Shown here: piece by piece, positions 34,274 to 62,909 of the stretch
Layout of the letters: the number at the start of each line of letters is the position of its first letter
Numbering within the stretch: the stretch's first letter is position 1
Assembly: GCF_004339465.1 (NCBI RefSeq)
Contig: NZ_SMFY01000002.1
Location: forward strand, 806,001-870,000
From: Ancylobacter aquaticus
Lineage (GTDB): Bacteria; Pseudomonadota; Alphaproteobacteria; Rhizobiales; Xanthobacteraceae
Reading direction: 5' to 3'
DNA: 64,000 nt
Made by a program: the position numbers and the translations under genes
Notes under the pieces: generated by a model
Database searches by the model: none
The model's input: the letters and a program-made list of their open reading frames with translations, nothing else
Told to the model about the DNA's origin: nothing

Positions 34274-35707
34274 ATGAGCATCACCGAAAAGCGCCCGGTC
34301 CACATTGTCGGCGGCGGCCTCGCCGGATGCGAAGCCGCTTGGCAGCTCGCCCGGCGCGGCATCCCGGTGGTGCTGCACGAAATGCGCCCGACGCGCGGCA
34401 CTGACGCGCACAAGACCGACAGCCTCGCCGAGCTGGTCTGTTCCAACTCCTTCCGTTCCGACGACGCGCAGAACAACGCGGTTGGCGTGCTGCACGCTGA
34501 GATGCGCCGGCTCGGCTCGCTCATCATGTCTTGCGCCGACAGCCACCAGATCCCGGCCGGCGGCGCGCTGGCGGTGGACCGCGAGGGCTTCGCGCAGGCC
34601 GTCACCGCCGCCATCGCCGGCCATCCGCTGATCACGGTGGAGCGCGGCGAGGTTGAGGGGCTGCCCCCGGAGGAGTGGGAATCGGTCATCATTGCCACCG
34701 GCCCCCTCACCTCCCCGTCCCTCGCTGAGGCGATCCGCGCCCGTGCGGACGAGCAGGCGCTCGCCTTCTTCGACGCTATCGCCCCCATCGTCCATTTCGA
34801 TTCCATCGACATGGACGTCTGCTGGTTCCAGTCGCGCTATGACAAGGTGGGCCCCGGCGGCACCGGCGCCGACTACATCAATTGCCCGATGGACAAGGAG
34901 CAGTACGACGCCTTCGTCGCCGCGCTGGCCGCCTCCGACACCGTCCCGTTCCGCGAATTCGAGGCCAACACGCCCTATTTCGACGGCTGCCTCCCGGTCG
35001 AGGTGATGGCCACGCGTGGCCCGGAGACGCTGCGCCACGGCCCGATGAAGCCGATGGGGTTGACCAACGCCCACAACCCGACCGTGAAGGCCTATGCCGT
35101 GGTCCAGCTGCGCCAGGACAACGCGCTGGGCACGCTCTACAATATGGTCGGCTTCCAGACCAAGACCCGCCACGGCGATCAGGTACGCCTGTTCCGCATG
35201 ATTCCGGGGCTGGAGAAGGCCGAGTTCGCCCGGCTCGGCGGCCTCCACCGCAACACCTATCTCAATTCGCCGCGCGTGCTCGATCACACCCTCCGCCTGA
35301 AAGCCGAGCCGCGCCTGCGCTTCGCCGGCCAGATCACCGGCTGCGAGGGCTATGTGGAAAGCTCCGCCATGGGCCTGATGGCCGGCCTGTTCGCGGCCGC
35401 CGAGCAGCGCCGGCAGGAGCCCGCCTTGCCCCCACCGACCACCGCCCATGGCGCCCTGCTCAACCACATCACCGGCGGCCATATCGAGACGGTGGAGGCG
35501 GGACCCCGCTCCTTCCAGCCGATGAACGTCAATTTCGGCCTGTTCCCGCCGCTCGACGCCAATCCCACCCGCGACACCGAGGGCAACCGCCTGCGCGGCT
35601 CGCAGAAGACAGTGGCTAAGAAGCAGGTGCTGGCCGCCCGCGCCCTCGCCGATCTGGACGCATGGGCGAAAACCCATGCCGACGAGCCGAGCGAGGCCGC
35701 CGCGTGA
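34274..35707 (+). CDS. trmFO: tRNA (uracil-5-)-methyltransferase TrmFO
   Basis: TrmFO makes 5-methyluridine 54 in the tRNA T-loop using methylenetetrahydrofolate and FADH2, instead of the SAM-dependent TrmA. The 477-residue product is GidA-related: N-terminal dinucleotide motif [34 protein letters not shown] with the first functional cysteine, [27 protein letters not shown] and [19 protein letters not shown] with the second cysteine, then FGLFPPL. Its stop overlaps the GTG start of the next gene (GTGA), so the two are translationally coupled. A genuine housekeeping gene of alphaproteobacteria and Firmicutes. Confidence 0.97.
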
Positions 35708-36780
35708 GCCTCAACATCCCCGCCAAAGGCGGCGTGTTCGAGCTCGACACCGTGCTCAAGCGCGACACCTTCTCCACCATCGAACGCGGCCTCTGGCGCG
35801 ATGCCGCCGGCAACGTCTTTCCGGCGGTGCGACGCAATTATGCCGGGGTGAAATGGTGGGTGAAACCCCTCGCCCGCCATTTCGCCGGCCGCGAGGCGCG
35901 CGCGCTGATCCGCGCCGAGGGCAGCGGCCACACCGTGCCGGTCTATGCGCTGGAGGAAGGCCACCTCGTGCGCGGCTTCGTCGACGGCATCCCGCTGCAG
36001 ATCGCTAAGCCGCGCGGCGACCTCGCCTATTTCGCCTCCGCCCGCAAGGGCCTGCGCGAAGTACACCGGCGCAACATCGCCCATAACGATCTCGCCAAGC
36101 CGCAAAACTGGCTCTATGCGGCGGACGGGCGTGCGGTGCTGATGGATTTCCAGCTGGCCATGGTGTTTTCCCACCGCAGCAAGGCGTTCCGCGTCGCGGC
36201 CTATGAGGACATCCGCCACTTCCTCAAGCAGAAGCGCAGCTACTGCCCGGAGGCGCTGACCGCGCGGGAAAAGAAGATACTGGCCCGCAAGAGCCTTTTC
36301 ACCCGGGTGTGGATGAAGACCGGCAAGAAGGTCTACAATTTCGTCACCCGGCGCCTGCTGAATTATCACGACACGGAAGGGCGCGGCCCGCGCGCCATGG
36401 AACAAGGCCCACGCATCGCAAGCGCGCTAGCCGAGGTCGGCGGCGTGCTTGCCGTGCACATCTGCGACTTCCCCACCGCCGGCCACAGTTTTGGGCTCTA
36501 CGCCTTTGTCGAGGCCGAGGAGGGCGTGAGCGAGGACGCGTTGCGCGCCCATCTCACCGCCCGGCTGGCGGATATCCTGCCGCCCGAGCACCTGCAGATT
36601 GTCCCCGCTTTGCCGCGCGACGCGGCCGGCACCGTGCGCGACGACCTGCTGCGCCTTGTCGCGCTCAACCAGCTCGACCAGCTCTCGCAACTGCCGCGCG
36701 GGCCACAGGAGGATAAAGCGCTGAGCGTGATCGTCCGCGACCGCCGCAACCTCAGCGACCGGGTGCGCGGCGGCATCTAA
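35704..36780 (+). CDS. Kinase-like domain fused to an ANL C-terminal subdomain
   Basis: The 358-residue protein has two parts. Residues about 14-180 form a small RIO/Kdo-kinase-like fold: Lys54 ([10 protein letters not shown]) and Glu64 could be the ATP-binding pair, the catalytic loop is H127-N-D129 with Asn135 (HNDLAKPQN), and the metal motif is DFQ (148-150) in place of DFG. A basic region (185-225) follows. Residues about 237-320 resemble the C-terminal subdomain of acyl-CoA synthetases and NRPS adenylation domains, including an A10-like block [15 protein letters not shown] (303-317), in which the catalytic lysine after glycine is threonine. No adenylation core is present. It starts at GTG inside the trmFO stop, so it is co-expressed with trmFO. 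Substrate and role are unknown. Confidence 0.8.
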
Positions 36781-37700
36781 TCCGGCTCGGCGGCGCCCGC
36801 ATGGCCCTGCGCCTGCGCCTTCAGTTCGCGCACGAAGGCGTCGACCAGTGGCTGCTCGCCCTTCAGTCGCCGGGTGGCGGCGAAATGGGTGGTCTCGAAG
36901 CCATAGGCTTCCGGCTTCAGCACCCGCATCTGGCCGCGCCCCACCCAGTCCTCGCCGATATGGCGCGGGAGATAGCCGATGAAGCGCCCAGACAGGATCA
37001 TCATCACCTGCGCCTCCATCTGCACGATGGCGCCGCTCGCGCGCGGATGGTTGACCCGGTAGAGATCGTCGAGGTGCCGATAGCGCCGCACCGAGAACAG
37101 CGCCTCCTCGATCCGGGCATGGGTGATGTCGGCCCCGGGGACGGCGAACAGCGCGTGCTCCCGCCCGCAATAGAGCGCCTGTGCCTCCCGGTTCAGCGGG
37201 ACATAGGTGATGCCCGGCACCTTCTGCGAGAACGGCCCGACGACGAGGTCGCGCGCCCCGTCCATCAGAGCCCGTTCCAGCACCAGCGGCGTTCCGAGTT
37301 CCAGATCTACGAACACTTCCGACGCATAGGCCATGTAGCGCGACAGCGCCGTCTGCAGGCCCAGTTTCGGGTTTGTGACGACGCCATCGACGATGCCGAC
37401 ACGCAGCCGTCCGACGAGGCGCTGCTGGTCGCGGCCGATCCGGCCATGGAAGGCGTCGATATCTTCAAACAGCTGCTTGGCGGCGGCGAGCGTCGATTCG
37501 CCGAAAGGCGTCAGCCGGAACCCCGCCCGTCCCCGCTCGCACAATTGCCCGCCAAGCTTGCGCTCAAGCGCGGCCAGATGGGTGGAGAGGGTGGATTGCG
37601 ACAGGTTCAGCGCGATCTGCGCGTCCTGGAAGCCGCCTTCCTGCACCAGCACGACGAAGACCCGCAGCAGCCGCAGGTCGATATTGTCGAGACGGCGCAT
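36777..37700 (-). CDS. LysR-family transcriptional regulator
   Basis: The 307-residue product has the LysR helix-turn-helix (NIDLRLLRVFVVLVQEGGF, LSQSTLSTHLAALERKLG) and a periplasmic-binding-fold effector domain (LVGRLRVGIVDGVVTN onwards). GGGGAG lies before the ATG. Its stop overlaps that of the convergent kinase-like gene. It is divergent from the SDR-creatininase-ureohydrolase cluster and is the natural candidate for its regulator, with the unknown substrate as co-inducer. It lacks OxyR-type cysteines. Confidence 0.92.
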   Translation of the reverse strand: MRRLDNIDLRLLRVFVVLVQEGGFQDAQIALNLSQSTLSTHLAALERKLGGQLCERGRAGFRLTPFGESTLAAAKQLFEDIDAFHGRIGRDQQRLVGRLRVGIVDGVVTNPKLGLQTALSRYMAYASEVFVDLELGTPLVLERALMDGARDLVVGPFSQKVPGITYVPLNREAQALYCGREHALFAVPGADITHARIEEALFSVRRYRHLDDLYRVNHPRASGAIVQMEAQVMMILSGRFIGYLPRHIGEDWVGRGQMRVLKPEAYGFETTHFAATRRLKGEQPLVDAFVRELKAQAQGHAGAAEPD

Positions 37701-57152: not shown

Positions 57153-60100
57153 ATGTCGACGAATACGAAGAAGCTTCAGCAGGATCCCGCCGAGGCCGCA
57201 TTGTCGGCCATCGAGGAGGCGCTGAGTCTCGACCATACGCCCGATGACGGCTTCGCCTCATCGGCGCAGGACGACTTTGAGCTTCCCCCGGCCCGCGAGC
57301 CGGAGGGGCCGCGCATCGAAACCCGCGCCGGTGCGACCGGCGAGGCCGGCTCCGCGCGCTTCCTCGACGACATCGACCTGTTCGGCGATACGACGGACCC
57401 GGAGGACTTCGAGACCTCATCGCTCGACGATGACGGGTTCACCCTGTCGGAAGCCGATCTCGCCGAAACCTCCGAGCCAGATCGCACGAGCGAACCGAAT
57501 TTCGACTTCGGCTCTGCCGCAGGCGAGGCCGATCTCGCCCCCGCCGCCCCCGCCCTTGCGGCGAGTGCGGCGGCTGCCGGCGCTGCGGCCGTCCTGCCGC
57601 GCGGCGAGGCCCGTACCGAAACCGAACCCACGGATTCCTCGCGGTCCGGCCCCAAGGGCCGCCGTGCGGCCAATGACGACCGCGAGAGCATCGGTCAGTT
57701 GCTGGCATCGCTCCAGCGCCGGCCCTCCTCCGCTCCCTATGTTTTCGCGACCATCGCCTCGCTCGGCTGGCTCGTCGCCGGGGGCGTGCTGCTGCAGGCC
57801 CAGTTCGGCAGCCTGACCGGCAATCTCCCCGCACTGGTGAACGCCCCCGGCTTCCTCGCCGGCGTGGCAGCAACCATCATCCCGCCGATCTTCTTCCTCG
57901 TCCTCGCCGCCATGGTGCGGCGGATGCAGGAAATGCGGATCGTCGCCTATTCCATGGCGCAGGTCGCCATCCGCCTCGCCGAACCGGCCCGGACTCCGTC
58001 CCCCGCGCCGGCCGCCGTCGCGACGGGCGCGGCCCTTCCCGCGATCCAGATGCCCGCCGGCGTCTCGCCGGACACGCTTGCCCAATATGCCGGCCTGGAG
58101 CAGTCCGTCACCCGCGCCAGCGAGGCGGAAGCCTTCGTGCGCGGCGAAGTCGCGGCGCTCTCGCAGGCCTATGACGACAATAACCGCAAGATGCATCAGC
58201 TGATCGAGCGCCTGCAGCTCGAACGCGACGCGATCCTGACCCAGACGGAGCATGTGCGCGAGACGCTCGCCGCCTCGCAGTTCACCTTCGCCGAGGAAGT
58301 CGGCAATGTCAGCGAGCGCATCAACGAAACCGTCATGCTGGCCGCCGACCGGGTGGCGCATACGCTTTCCGATCGTGGCGAACACATCACCCTCGCGCTC
58401 GGCCGCGTCGGCGACACCATCATCGAGGCCCTGTCCGACAAGGGCGGCGACCTGATCGACCGGCTGCAGGCGACCGGATCGGAGGTCAACACCAACCTCT
58501 CCGACGCCAGCGACCACCTCCTCTCGACACTGTCGGTGCAGAGCGACCAGATCAGCGACCGCCTCTCCGGCGTCACCAACCAGCTGACCGAAACGCTGTC
58601 CACCCGGACCGACGAGATCAGCCGCCAGCTTTCCGGCGCCACCGACACGCTGTCCAGGACCCTCACCGCGCGCTCCGACGAAATCGGCCTGCGGCTTTCC
58701 GGCATCGCCGAAAACCTCACCGATACCCTGGCCTCGCGCACGGATGCGATCAGCCGCCAGCTGGCCGGCGTCACCGAAAACCTGTCCGACACTCTCGCCT
58801 CCCGGACCGACGAGATCAGCCGCCAGCTCTCGGGCGTTACCGAGAACCTGAGCGACACGCTGGCCGCCCGCACCGACGAGATCGGCGATCGCCTGCTGCG
58901 CACCGCTGCCGAGCTGTCGCATGTGGTGAACCTGCGCACCGAGGAGATGGGCGACAAGCTGTCCGCCACCACCATCAACCTCACCAGCACGCTCACGGCC
59001 CGTTCCGACGAGATCACCGACGCGCTGGTGAGCACCGGCACGCGCCTCGCCGACGAAATCGCCATTCGCGCCAGCCAGGTGAACCAGACGCTCAAGAGCA
59101 CCGGCGACGCGCTGGTACTCGACCTCTCGGTGCGCGGCGGCGAAGTCGTCCGCAAGCTGGAGGAGACCGGCAACCGGGTGGCCGACACCATCACCGTGCG
59201 CGGCGACGACCTCGCCGATCGCATTGCCGACACCGGCAACCGCATCTACGACGCCGTCGCCGTGCGCGGCGCCGAGCTGGAGCGCCTGCTGGGCGAGACC
59301 GGCCAGCGCGTCGTCCACCAGCTCTCGCAGGCCGGCACCGGCATCCACGACGCCCTCGCCGAAGCGGCAGGGCGCGTCTCGCAGGATATCGACTATCGCG
59401 GCCAGGCCCTGACGCAGCAGCTCGCCCATGTCGGCGCCGAGGCGGCGCAGACCCTCGCCGACAATGGCGCCCGCGTGACCGAGCAGTTCCGCGACGCCGC
59501 CGATTATCTTGCCTCCGACCTCACCACGCGCAGCGAGAACATGCGCGACCATCTGGAGCAGCAGTTCCGCAACATCGAGGACCTGGTCAGCGTGCGCGGC
59601 GGCGAGATTGCCGACCGCATCTCGACCGACACCTCGTCGCTCGGCCGACAGATCGTCGACGGCCTGCGCGACTTCGACACCGTCCTGCACACCCATGGCG
59701 GCGAGATGGTCCAGCGTATTTCGGATCGCGTCGAGGCCGTGACCCGGGCCATCGACACCAACCTTTCAGGCTTCGACGACCAGGTTTCCAACAAGGCCGA
59801 GCAGGTGGCCGCTGCGCTCGACATGCGCATCGCCAACATCGAGGGCGTGCTCGACCGCGGCGTCGATGGCCTCAACGCGACGCTCGGCAACCGCACCGTC
59901 GAATTCGCCCAGACGCTGTCGGAAGGCGCGCGCCAGGCCAATGACGCGATGAGCCAGTCGCTCGAAATGCTGAGCAGCTTCTTCGACGAGCGCGCCGGCA
60001 CCATCACCGACCAGCTCTCCCAGCATATCGACCAGGCCGACCGCACGCTCGCGGCGCGGGCTCAGGATATCGCCACCTCGCTCGACGACCGCGTCGGCCG

Positions 60101-62909
60101 GTTCGAGGCGACCGTCGTCAGCCGCATCGAAAATGTCGCAACCTCGGTCGAGGTGCGCGGCGCCGCCATGGCCGACCTTCTCGGCCAGCGCATCGGCGCG
60201 GTCGCCGGCCAGCTGCGCAGCGAGGCTGCCGAGATCGAAACCAGCCTCACCTCGCTCGCCGACAATGTCAGCCGCACGCTGGTCGACCGCGCCGGTGAGG
60301 TGACGACGCTCTTCGACTCCCGCACGGACGAGATCGCCCGCATTGTCGAAGAGCGTGGCAACGGGCTGCTCACGGCGCTGGAAGACCGCAGCATCTCCAT
60401 CACCAGCGAGATCGCCCGCGCCAGCACCGAACTGCTCTCGGCCATTGATGATCACCGTCAGAACCTGGTGACGGCGCTCGACACCACCCGCAACGGCGCG
60501 GTCTCCGACATCATGCGCGCCAGCGACGAATTGCTGAACACGCTGGAGACGCGCTCGGACGCCATCATCTCGGCCTTCGAGACAGCGACCACGGGCCGGG
60601 CCGACCAACTCATGCAGATCAGCGGCGATGTCGTCTCCTCGCTGCAGCAGATCACCGGCGATGTCGCCGCCTCGCTTCAGGCCGCCGGCGGCGAAGTCAC
60701 CGCCTCGCTCCAGTTGGTCGGCAGCGACGTCAACACCTCGCTCAAGCTTGCCACCGGCGAGGTTTCGACCTCGCTGCAGCAGATCGGCGGACAGGTCACG
60801 CAGGAGATTGCCCGCGCTGGCGACACGCTGCTCAGCGAGTTTGACGGGCGCGGTGCCCAGCTGGTGGAAAGCGCGCGCCAGGCGACCGAAATCGCCTCCA
60901 GCGAGTTCTCCCGTCTTGTCGATGAGTTCGATGGGCGTGGCGTCCAGTTGGTGGACAGCGCCCGCCAGGCGACCGAAATCGCCTCCGGCGAGTTCTCCCG
61001 CCTCGTCGATGAATTCGACGGGCGCGGCACCCAGCTGGTCGCAAGCGTGCGCCAGGCGACCGGCGGCGTCTCCGATGAGTTCGCTCGCCTGGTCGACGAG
61101 TTCGGCGGCCAGGGCGTCCAGTTTGTCGACAGCGCCCGCCGGGCCACCAATGTCGCCTCCGAAGAGTTCGCCCGGCTTGCCGAAGAGTTCGCGGCGTCGC
61201 TCGAAGGCCGCGGCAGCGGCCTGATCGAGGCGATCGCGGCCAGCGGCCGTTCAGCGGTGGCGGAAATCGCCGCTACCAACGAGGCGCTGCAGGGCGATGT
61301 CACCGGCCTGCTGGAACGCCTCGGCGATGTGAACGTCCAGCTTCAGGACGTGCTCGCCTCCTCGGTCAACAACCTCGCCGATACCGAAAAGACCATCACC
61401 GAGCGGCTGGAAGCCTTCCGCAGCACGGTCACCAATGTCGAGGAAGCCAGCACCCTCGCCTCCTCGCGCATGGACGAGCAGATCCGCGATCTGCGCTCGG
61501 TGTCCACCGACGTTCTCAAGGATGTCGCCCGGCTCAGCCATTCCTTTGGCGAGCAGGCGAGCCTCATCACCAGCGTCGCCAACGCCCTTGGCACCGCGCA
61601 TGAAAACCTCGACGACACGCTCGGCGGCCGGCACGAGGCGCTTCTCGCCGTCGCCGAGCAGGTTACGGGACGGACGGCCGATCTCGATACCCGCCTGTCC
61701 CAGTATACCAGCACGCTGGAGACCACGTTCGGCCGCGCCGAGGAGCGCGTGAGCGCCATCTCCAAGACCATCCTCGCCGCTGCCAGCACCTCCACCGACG
61801 CCATCGTGCGCCAGCAGCAGGACGTCCGCGAGACCACCGAAGCCGAACGCGAGCGCACGCTCGCCTCGCTGCACGAGACCTATGAGCAGGCCGTGCGCGA
61901 GGTCGACACCCTGATGCGCCAGGCCAATCAGGGCTTCTCCGGCGCCGCCCAGGCGCTGCGTGCCTCCGTGCTCGACATCCAGCGCCTGCTGGAGACGACC
62001 CGCGAGGAGATCAAGCGCGGCATTCTGGAACTGCCGGAGGAGACCGAGGCCAACGCCTCCGCCATGCGCCGCACCGTCGCCGAGCAGATCAAGGCACTGG
62101 CCGAGCTGAACGAGATCGTCTCGCGTCACGGCCGCACGCTCGACGTCGATGCCGGATCGCGCCCGCGCCTTGCCGGGCCGCTTGTCGGGCCGGCACCGCT
62201 TCCCTCCGCCCCGCTGGCGCCTGCGCCCCGCGCGTCACTCTCGCGTGTCCAGCCGGCCGCGCCGCGTCCCGAGCCGACCCGTTCGGAAGCGCCGTCCTAT
62301 TTCGATCCGCCGCGCAGCAACGGTAATGGCGGCAACGGCGCCGTTGGCAATGGCGGCAACGCCCCGCAGCGCCGGGCCAACATCGCCCCCCTGCCGCCGG
62401 AGCGTGGTGGCGCGCCGGACAAGGGCGGCTGGCTCTCCGAGCTGCTAGCGCGCGCCTCCGATGGCGAAGGCCCGGCACCCACGGGTCCCGTTCCCCGTAG
62501 CGTTCCTGTCACGCCCCCGCGCAATTTCGATCCGCGCCAGGGCCAGCCGGAGCGCCCCGTTCACCACACCATCGAGTCGCTTGACTCGCTGTCGGTGGAC
62601 ATCGCCCGGATGATCGACCACGAAGCCGCGGTCGATCTGTGGGAGCGCTACAAGAAGGGGGAGCGTAATGTCTTCACCCGTCGGCTCTACACCATGCAGG
62701 GGCAGCAGACCTTCGAGGAGATCCGCCGTAAATACCGGCGCGACCTCGAATTCCGCGACACGGTCGACCGCTATATCGGCGAGTTCGAGCGGCTGCTGGA
62801 GCAGGTCTCGCGTGACGAGCGCGGGCAGGAGCTGACCAAGACCTATCTGACCTCGGATACGGGCAAGGTCTACACGCTGCTCGCCCACGCCGCCGGCCGC
62901 TTCGACTGA
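57153..62909 (+). CDS. Giant apolipoprotein-like coiled-coil membrane protein (GPR-like)
   Basis: The 1918-residue protein has an acidic disordered N-terminus (1-190), two membrane segments (about 195-215, APYVFATIASLGWLVAGGVL, and 234-255), and a very long helical region. Residues 405-822 are nineteen consecutive 22-residue units (consensus-like SGVTENLSDTLASRTDEIS), the periodicity of apolipoproteins; residues 1229-1344 are four 29-residue tandem repeats (EFDGRG-QLV-SARQATEIAS type). A Pro/Gly-rich linker (about 1670-1800) precedes a conserved C-terminal segment (IARMIDHEAAVDLWERYKKG). This architecture matches the growth pole ring protein of Agrobacterium, an apolipoprotein-like membrane protein of about 2,100 residues needed for polar growth. 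GGAGG precedes the ATG. The assignment is by architecture and recall, not by alignment. Confidence 0.82.
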   Translation: MSTNTKKLQQDPAEAALSAIEEALSLDHTPDDGFASSAQDDFELPPAREPEGPRIETRAGATGEAGSARFLDDIDLFGDTTDPEDFETSSLDDDGFTLSEADLAETSEPDRTSEPNFDFGSAAGEADLAPAAPALAASAAAAGAAAVLPRGEARTETEPTDSSRSGPKGRRAANDDRESIGQLLASLQRRPSSAPYVFATIASLGWLVAGGVLLQAQFGSLTGNLPALVNAPGFLAGVAATIIPPIFFLVLAAMVRRMQEMRIVAYSMAQVAIRLAEPARTPSPAPAAVATGAALPAIQMPAGVSPDTLAQYAGLEQSVTRASEAEAFVRGEVAALSQAYDDNNRKMHQLIERLQLERDAILTQTEHVRETLAASQFTFAEEVGNVSERINETVMLAADRVAHTLSDRGEHITLALGRVGDTIIEALSDKGGDLIDRLQATGSEVNTNLSDASDHLLSTLSVQSDQISDRLSGVTNQLTETLSTRTDEISRQLSGATDTLSRTLTARSDEIGLRLSGIAENLTDTLASRTDAISRQLAGVTENLSDTLASRTDEISRQLSGVTENLSDTLAARTDEIGDRLLRTAAELSHVVNLRTEEMGDKLSATTINLTSTLTARSDEITDALVSTGTRLADEIAIRASQVNQTLKSTGDALVLDLSVRGGEVVRKLEETGNRVADTITVRGDDLADRIADTGNRIYDAVAVRGAELERLLGETGQRVVHQLSQAGTGIHDALAEAAGRVSQDIDYRGQALTQQLAHVGAEAAQTLADNGARVTEQFRDAADYLASDLTTRSENMRDHLEQQFRNIEDLVSVRGGEIADRISTDTSSLGRQIVDGLRDFDTVLHTHGGEMVQRISDRVEAVTRAIDTNLSGFDDQVSNKAEQVAAALDMRIANIEGVLDRGVDGLNATLGNRTVEFAQTLSEGARQANDAMSQSLEMLSSFFDERAGTITDQLSQHIDQADRTLAARAQDIATSLDDRVGRFEATVVSRIENVATSVEVRGAAMADLLGQRIGAVAGQLRSEAAEIETSLTSLADNVSRTLVDRAGEVTTLFDSRTDEIARIVEERGNGLLTALEDRSISITSEIARASTELLSAIDDHRQNLVTALDTTRNGAVSDIMRASDELLNTLETRSDAIISAFETATTGRADQLMQISGDVVSSLQQITGDVAASLQAAGGEVTASLQLVGSDVNTSLKLATGEVSTSLQQIGGQVTQEIARAGDTLLSEFDGRGAQLVESARQATEIASSEFSRLVDEFDGRGVQLVDSARQATEIASGEFSRLVDEFDGRGTQLVASVRQATGGVSDEFARLVDEFGGQGVQFVDSARRATNVASEEFARLAEEFAASLEGRGSGLIEAIAASGRSAVAEIAATNEALQGDVTGLLERLGDVNVQLQDVLASSVNNLADTEKTITERLEAFRSTVTNVEEASTLASSRMDEQIRDLRSVSTDVLKDVARLSHSFGEQASLITSVANALGTAHENLDDTLGGRHEALLAVAEQVTGRTADLDTRLSQYTSTLETTFGRAEERVSAISKTILAAASTSTDAIVRQQQDVRETTEAERERTLASLHETYEQAVREVDTLMRQANQGFSGAAQALRASVLDIQRLLETTREEIKRGILELPEETEANASAMRRTVAEQIKALAELNEIVSRHGRTLDVDAGSRPRLAGPLVGPAPLPSAPLAPAPRASLSRVQPAAPRPEPTRSEAPSYFDPPRSNGNGGNGAVGNGGNAPQRRANIAPLPPERGGAPDKGGWLSELLARASDGEGPAPTGPVPRSVPVTPPRNFDPRQGQPERPVHHTIESLDSLSVDIARMIDHEAAVDLWERYKKGERNVFTRRLYTMQGQQTFEEIRRKYRRDLEFRDTVDRYIGEFERLLEQVSRDERGQELTKTYLTSDTGKVYTLLAHAAGRFD
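58365..59618 (+). repeat. Nineteen tandem 66-bp units (22-residue repeats) in the GPR-like gene
   Basis: Counting by hand, each unit begins with a hydrophobic residue (Leu in most) and carries R/G near position 15-16, as in LSGVTENLSDTLASRTDE (start of units at residues 559 and, with one change, 537). Units at 471-580 are the most alike and appear to have expanded most recently. No insertion or deletion breaks the phase from residue 405 to 822. Confidence 0.85.
60837..61184 (+). repeat. Four tandem 87-bp units (29-residue repeats) in the GPR-like gene
   Basis: The units begin EFDGRGAQLVESARQATE, EFDGRGVQLVDSARQATE, EFDGRGTQLVASVRQATG and EFGGQGVQFVDSARRATN, each followed by eleven further residues with a FSRLVD/FARLVD end. 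Together they fill 348 bases exactly. They encode residues 1229-1344 and look like a local duplication inside the coiled-coil region. Confidence 0.9.

Follow-up and report, generated by a model that had tools for sequence, protein, structure and literature searches.

Replacements of the central lysine of kinases have been described previously. According to the available portion of one such report (Kannan et al. 2007, PMC1821047), Lys72 is changed to arginine in CAK kinases, with compensating changes, and in WNK and CAK-chloro kinases the positive charge is shifted from position 72 to position 55 of the glycine-rich loop; CAK-chloro also carries Q186. Here we describe a gene in a stretch of 64,000 nucleotides (nt) from Ancylobacter aquaticus (contig NZ_SMFY01000002.1, positions 806,001 to 870,000; hereafter the window). 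It represents a widespread alphaproteobacterial family whose generic kinase name hides both a rearranged ATP site and an acetyl-CoA synthetase (Acs) domain that is catalytically dead.

35704..36780, + strand: gene for a kinase fused to an Acs-type C-terminal domain, 358 amino acids (NCBIfam PRK09188, 514.5 bits against a cut-off of 490).

The match to PRK09188 (NF006620, 'serine/threonine protein kinase') spans residues 6-355, and the architecture is identical, but the name of the model omits both the Acs domain and the altered ATP site. A preliminary description of this locus held that no described protein is known to join the two modules. The existing model corrects that statement in part, whereas among the partial listings returned by literature searches on PRK09188 and PRK12274, the fused architecture and the lysine move, there was no paper describing them. 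Thus, the fused architecture is an uncharacterised yet already modelled family.

The second related model, PRK12274 (NF008910), scores 192.1 bits with the window protein against a curated cut-off of 372. Its stand-alone kinases share the Lys19/Arg44 pattern discussed below, the HND sequence, the lysine and asparagine of the catalytic loop and a D-x-EG tail, and most also share DFQ. However, they are without the Acs domain, and those found come from genomes outside the class of the window, with G427 as the single case within it. When compared with RIO1 and RIO2 kinases, the window family has arginine in place of the beta-3 lysine, and its match to PF01163 (RIO1; 19.2 bits) lies below the gathering score of 22, and that to PF00069 (Pkinase; 22.4 bits) below one of 31.7. 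The C-terminal domain of Acs (4u5y, 1pg3) resembles the second module in fold and in sequence, nearly to the Acs C-terminus. Acs itself has an adenylation core and, in its A10 block, a catalytic lysine (named as Lys609 by the title of 1pg3), whereas the window protein has no core and carries Thr310.

What is new here is the Arg44/Lys19 pattern, a second domain that is under selection, doubled in places and mostly devoid of the A10 lysine, and a linkage to trmFO that belongs to the taxonomic family of the window. The value of the family lies chiefly in its ATP site and its captive Acs domain.

The kinase module and its altered ATP site

The following features were located in the kinase module. 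Row counts refer to an alignment of 129 rows from 126 distinct places (three were entered twice), from which L029, whose start was miscalled, and L001, which is the window, were left out. Rows placed on the full model by VIA-align reached residues 2-200 only, and the second domain was given a separate model.

35734..36369, + strand: RIO-like kinase domain, about residues 11-222, without an extended activation segment.
35758..35760, + strand: Lys19, at the end of beta-1 and start of the glycine-rich loop (L-K-x-D-x-F); K in 128/129 rows.
35833..35835, + strand: Arg44, occupying the position of the beta-3 ATP lysine; R in 128/129 rows.
35893..35895, + strand: Glu64, the helix C glutamate, within helix 54-71 of the AlphaFold model; 129/129 rows.
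36082..36108, + strand: catalytic loop H127-N-D129-L-A-K132-P-Q-N135; H, D, K and N each in 129/129 rows.
36145..36153, + strand: metal-binding motif D148-F-Q150, DFQ for DFG; D and Q each in 129/129 rows.

The AlphaFold prediction has high confidence for both the kinase and the C-terminal subdomain, and the kinase module has a RIO-like fold. Alignment and prediction agree with the earlier proposal of a kinase-like module with an HND catalytic loop, N135 and DFQ. The loop is one residue longer than the RIO motif. Only nine residues separate DFQ (148-150) from helix 160-180 in the model, which leaves no extended activation segment. Therefore, the window protein is probably not a general peptide serine/threonine kinase, despite its name.

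The lysine that active protein-kinase-like enzymes carry in beta-3 is replaced by Arg44. This change and the constant Lys19 go beyond the preliminary description, as does the Acs type of the second domain. The sole exception to both positions among the 129 rows is an outgroup kinase (L035), which has histidine and lysine, respectively. In a smaller comparison, Lys19 and Arg44 occur together in 12 of 12 distinct places of the family, fused or stand-alone, whereas all 17 distinct outgroup places have the beta-3 lysine (41 rows before removal of repeats, with some near-copies remaining). Position 19 of the outgroup is variable (R 8, H 4, A 2, K 2, G 1), with an unsure alignment of the far rows at this point. 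Some outgroup kinases also carry DFQ. One of them, L182, has lysine at position 19 together with the beta-3 lysine, and may on this evidence resemble an intermediate of the lysine change. A tree of the kinase part separates the family from the outgroup with support of 99/99.

The glycines of the P-loop are missing in the window protein. By hand alignment to PKA, Lys19 stands at the first glycine of GxGxxG.

Comparison with the WNK, CAK-chloro and CAK precedents shows both likeness and difference. The Q186 of CAK-chloro parallels the DFQ of the window family, and the loop charge of WNK and CAK-chloro at position 55 has its counterpart at about position 50 by hand alignment, with an arginine retained at 72. 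This combination of lysine and arginine is not among the solutions given in the available portion of that report (PMC1821047).

A captive acetyl-CoA synthetase-type domain

The remainder of the protein carries the following features.

36388..36756, + strand: Acs-type C-terminal ANL subdomain, about residues 229-351, assigned by profile comparison.
36610..36654, + strand: A10-like block, residues 303-317; lysine column K in 10/129 rows.
36631-36633, + strand: Thr310 in place of the catalytic A10 lysine; K absent from 29/29 genus rows.

The predicted model of the 358 residues shows the fold of the ANL C-terminal subdomain, as the preliminary description had anticipated. A match to PF13193 (AMP-binding_C) had also been expected and was found in part: the window protein scores 19.1 bits, below the gathering score of 24.5, whereas 16 of 44 members do reach E<=0.01, the best of them with 2e-12. 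A generic acyl-CoA-ligase type was dropped in favour of the Acs type after profile comparisons, in which the second domain is closer to the C-terminal domain of Acs than to those of other ANL enzymes. The domain tree does not settle this choice because the fused clade forms a long branch.

The protein is not an Acs enzyme. Its 358 residues hold the kinase and the C-terminal domain only, so that the large adenylation core is absent, and the A10 lysine is replaced by Thr310; both points had been read correctly from the letters of the window. Without core and catalytic lysine, the domain therefore cannot make acyl-adenylates. Loss of the lysine is not confined to the window protein, a possibility excluded by the fact that most of the 129 rows are without it (T 35, E 24, A 15, S 10, R 10, K 10). 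Eight of the 10 rows that retain it belong to a single genus within the same taxonomic family, and the column is gapped in six fused Rhodobacteraceae-type rows.

Other positions of the second domain are invariant over 44 diverse members (G264, Y266, F268, Q298, P304, A320 and N322), as is the tail motif R347-N349-D352-R353. Within the genus, the kinase has a ratio of nonsynonymous to synonymous substitution rates (dN/dS) of 0.27, against 0.33 for the second domain and 0.19 for trmFO (400-403 of 406 pairs from 29 rows, with L029 dropped and pairs outside dS 0.2-1.5 discarded). Thus, purifying selection acts on the second domain. A single open reading frame (ORF) codes for the kinase followed by two tandem Acs-type domains in each of two genomes from the same family, G1265 (L249) and G1252 (L250).

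L249:2478-4118, - strand: kinase plus two Acs-type domains in one ORF, 49% likeness between the copies.
L250:3219-4682, + strand: kinase plus two Acs-type domains in one ORF, 39% likeness between the copies.

A domain that is retained, occasionally duplicated and in most members deprived of its catalytic residue suggests a role in binding rather than in catalysis.

Distribution and fusion history

The gene is present in 30 of 30 genomes of the genus, including that of the window. Among 61 relatives, 42 have a match at E<=0.001; 35 of these cover nearly the whole protein, and the seven weak and partial matches mostly correspond to an ANL portion within a longer ORF. With the PRK09188 model at E<=1e-15, the family was recovered from 71 of 119 genomes of the same taxonomic family (a few as contig-end fragments only), 15 of 297 of the order and five of 385 of the class, the last including the stand-alone kinase of G427 and an outgroup kinase of G139. 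Across the phylum, 23 of 398 genomes have a match to the PRK12274 model at E<=1e-10; we read these as 13 fused, six stand-alone members of the family and four outgroup kinases. In another class, 13 of 229 genomes match at E<=1e-6, mostly with outgroup kinases. The class-, order- and phylum-wide counts score first-look candidates only. As a positive control, six of six genomes known to hold the family were recovered.

A scan of genome contigs gave at least 591 pattern matches, at least 573 of which encode a relative; two patterns were used, so that one gene may count twice. The best 80 of these, ranked against an Amorphus-type query, come from Amorphus, Aurantimonas, Aureimonas, Mesorhizobium, Aminobacter, Xanthobacter, Blastochloris, Ochrobactrum/Brucella and roseobacter-type genera. 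A unique or chimeric protein is excluded by these related stretches and the existing family model. A plasmid search returned no match. L032 and L044 were left out of the locus set as duplicate places, and the row L162 (Bartonella) was left out of set A3.

In the kinase tree, 28 of 29 fused kinases fall on one side (90/94). The member with the most Acs-like second domain (L033, the same as L057) stands weakly (84/58) beside the stand-alone L034. The domain tree likewise groups 32 of 33 fused rows on one side (97/85) and places the long-branched L033 near Acs. A single fused clade is not rejected by the approximately unbiased test (p-AU 0.357 for the kinase and 0.181 for the domain); in the kinase tree, long outgroup branches meet.

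Proposed function and alternatives

On balance, we favour an active, atypical phosphotransferase of two modules, in which a kinase with a rearranged ATP site is joined to a dead Acs domain that serves as a docking or regulatory module. The N-terminal 222 residues would form a minimal RIO/KdoK-like kinase that binds ATP. Arg44 would take the place of the beta-3 lysine and pair with Glu64, Lys19 at the glycine-rich loop might help to hold the phosphates, and D129, N135 and D148 would be used for catalysis and metal binding. The approximately 123 C-terminal residues correspond to the small, normally mobile C-terminal domain of Acs, which may dock or regulate and thereby bring the kinase to a partner.

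Several observations weigh against this proposal. The geometry of Lys19, Arg44 and Glu64 is inferred from secondary structure and alignment, a basic residue at position 19 is often seen outside the family as well (with far rows of unsure alignment), and an arginine in beta-3 can also accompany loss of activity. Loss of the A10 lysine is incomplete in the family, since 10 of 129 rows (one place counted twice) still have it. For the window protein, the Acs profile (23.6 bits) and a mixed profile of other ANL enzymes (23.1 bits) are in a practical tie. The second domain evolves faster than the kinase, with a mean identity within the genus of 74% against 83%. Finally, the annotated neighbours vary by lineage and none names a pathway.

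The protein could instead be a small-molecule kinase of the KdoK/WaaP sort that acts on a lipid, a sugar or a lipopolysaccharide-like substrate, with the Acs domain holding a substrate linked to CoA or an acyl carrier or stabilising the kinase. We regard this as a tentative alternative. The extended activation segment is absent from the model, and PF06293 (Kdo) matches four and PF01636 (APH) 16 of 44 members (E<=0.01). The available part of a study of WaaP offers a precedent, since that enzyme is structurally most like RioK1, requires acyl carrier protein carrying an acyl group (acyl-ACP) and is stabilised by it (PMC6147952). The kinase of L057 is flanked by lpxB and a PAP2 gene, and the stand-alone kinase of L170 has a VTT-PAP2-LssY gene as its divergent neighbour, but these are single cases and other loci have different genes.

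Another option is that the domain mimics Acs and docks on the Acs N-terminal domain or on a GNAT acetyltransferase of the Pat/AcuA type, with the kinase phosphorylating one of these or the domain acting as a decoy. This is doubtful, and a role as a lipid or sugar kinase is at least equally plausible. The Acs type of the second domain fits the idea, and Acs C-terminal domains are known docking surfaces: the title of 4u5y pairs one with the GNAT domain of Pat, and in Bacillus subtilis AcuA is bound by the C-terminal domain of AcsA, according to the part of that report available (PMC11910552). A domain without the lysine could bind and yet escape acetylation. Acs scores over the cut-off in all nine genomes searched, including that of the window; this is weak support because Acs is common (seven of 14 control genomes over the cut-off). 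However, a K549A change in AcsA affected AcuA binding (available part of PMC11910552), so that binding there leaned on a lysine that is absent in most of the family; the A10 column is deleted in the six fused Rhodobacteraceae-type rows; and neither acs nor pat occurs among those neighbours that were annotated.

A bolder version is similarly doubtful. In it, the ATP lysine of the kinase clade would have been transferred to the first-glycine position, adding another solution to those known from WNK/CAK-chloro and CAK. Alphaproteobacteria would then have recruited the Acs domain to act as a docking mimic, linking phosphorylation to the synthesis of acetyl-CoA or to the acetylation of proteins, with a doubling in some lineages. 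If the domain does dock on acetate metabolism, the family would provide a new control link between phosphorylation and acetyl-CoA. Even without such docking, the Arg44/Lys19 pattern offers a simple test of how the central lysine of kinases can be replaced, with natural outgroups and the possible intermediate L182 available for comparison.

It is unlikely that the protein is a pseudokinase scaffold that may bind ATP and whose beta-3 arginine marks the loss of catalysis. The beta-3 lysine is indeed absent from 128 of 128 family rows and the window P-loop is without glycines, but E64, H127, D129, N135 and D148 are present in all 129 rows, and Lys19 is constant in the family whereas lysine occupies this position in two of 17 outgroup places. 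Moreover, working kinase families with arginine for K72 or a lysine in the glycine-rich loop appear in the available portion of PMC1821047.

The preliminary description suggested that the kinase might act on an unusual substrate presented by the ANL subdomain, or that this subdomain may be a protein-binding relic. A passive relic of an accidental fusion would explain the drifting A10 column and the faster evolution of the domain, but it is very unlikely because of the invariant residues across the 44 diverse rows, the purifying selection (dN/dS 0.33) and the doubling in two genomes.

Linkage to trmFO and neighbouring genes

The genes on either side of the kinase gene in the window are as follows.

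34274..35707, + strand: trmFO, upstream neighbour with a 4-nt overlap (TIGR00137, 531.0 bits against a cut-off of 428.65).
36777-37700, - strand: LysR-type regulator, tail to tail with the kinase gene, the ends overlapping by 4 nt.

The identity of the upstream gene as trmFO is certain. The GTG start of the kinase gene at 35704 overlaps the trmFO stop as GTGA, as originally noted. An in-frame ATG is also present 14 codons upstream, within trmFO, but the GTG is likely the true start because it is the only kinase start found in the genus loci L002-L008.

The linkage proposed earlier holds close to the window and weakens beyond it. All 30 genus loci have trmFO directly upstream in the same orientation (seven at zero distance by BLAST ranges, the others within 600 nt). 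The same arrangement is seen in 41 of 43 loci taken from the remaining genera of the family, mostly best-scoring and several hand-picked, with one BLAST-range overlap of 19. In two other families it is directly upstream in none of four loci, where it sits past an opposite-strand gene. Among the best 80 scan loci, trmFO is directly upstream in 11 and past an opposite-strand gene in two more; the stretches usually extend about 5 kb per side, less in some. (The locus sets overlap by three places.) Thus, the linkage belongs to the family of the window, and a functional link as a general rule was dropped, since 67 of the 80 stretches are without trmFO. That the protein is a partner of TrmFO in tRNA modification through translational coupling would agree with the GTGA overlap and the linkage in the genus and family, but is extremely unlikely in view of those 67 stretches, of uvrD as the next gene in 32 of 79 loci and of Amorphus-type loci that place trmFO past an opposite-strand gene.

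In this count of neighbours (n=79; L095 was left out since its kinase ORF was not called), uvrD is next downstream often in rhizobia, and is on the stretch in 47 loci. Some Rhodobacteraceae-type loci have an aldehyde dehydrogenase gene upstream (six) or a pseudouridine synthase gene downstream (six). Among those neighbours of stand-alone kinases that were annotated, no common pathway appears.

Two loci have a gene of about 200 residues on the opposite strand between the kinase and trmFO (L054:6524-7114 and L055:6233-6907), with no Pfam match at E<=0.001. At L062:1753-6137, a row of yajC, secD, secF, DUF498 and squalene/phytoene synthase genes (by Pfam) is convergent to the kinase-trmFO pair. 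Gene lengths resembling this row occur in several relatives, and the row is not beside the pair in the window. The most Acs-like fused member lies between lpxB, to which it is divergent, and a PAP2 phosphatase gene (L057:5689-9308). At L170:5857-9102, the gene for a stand-alone PRK12274 kinase shares 4 nt with a DUF2867 gene and is transcribed divergently from a VTT-PAP2-LssY gene.

Elsewhere in the window, an ORF of 1918 residues (57153-62909, + strand) matches the apolipoprotein A1/A4/E domain in seven stretches (1.9e-54) and probably codes for a long helical repeat protein.
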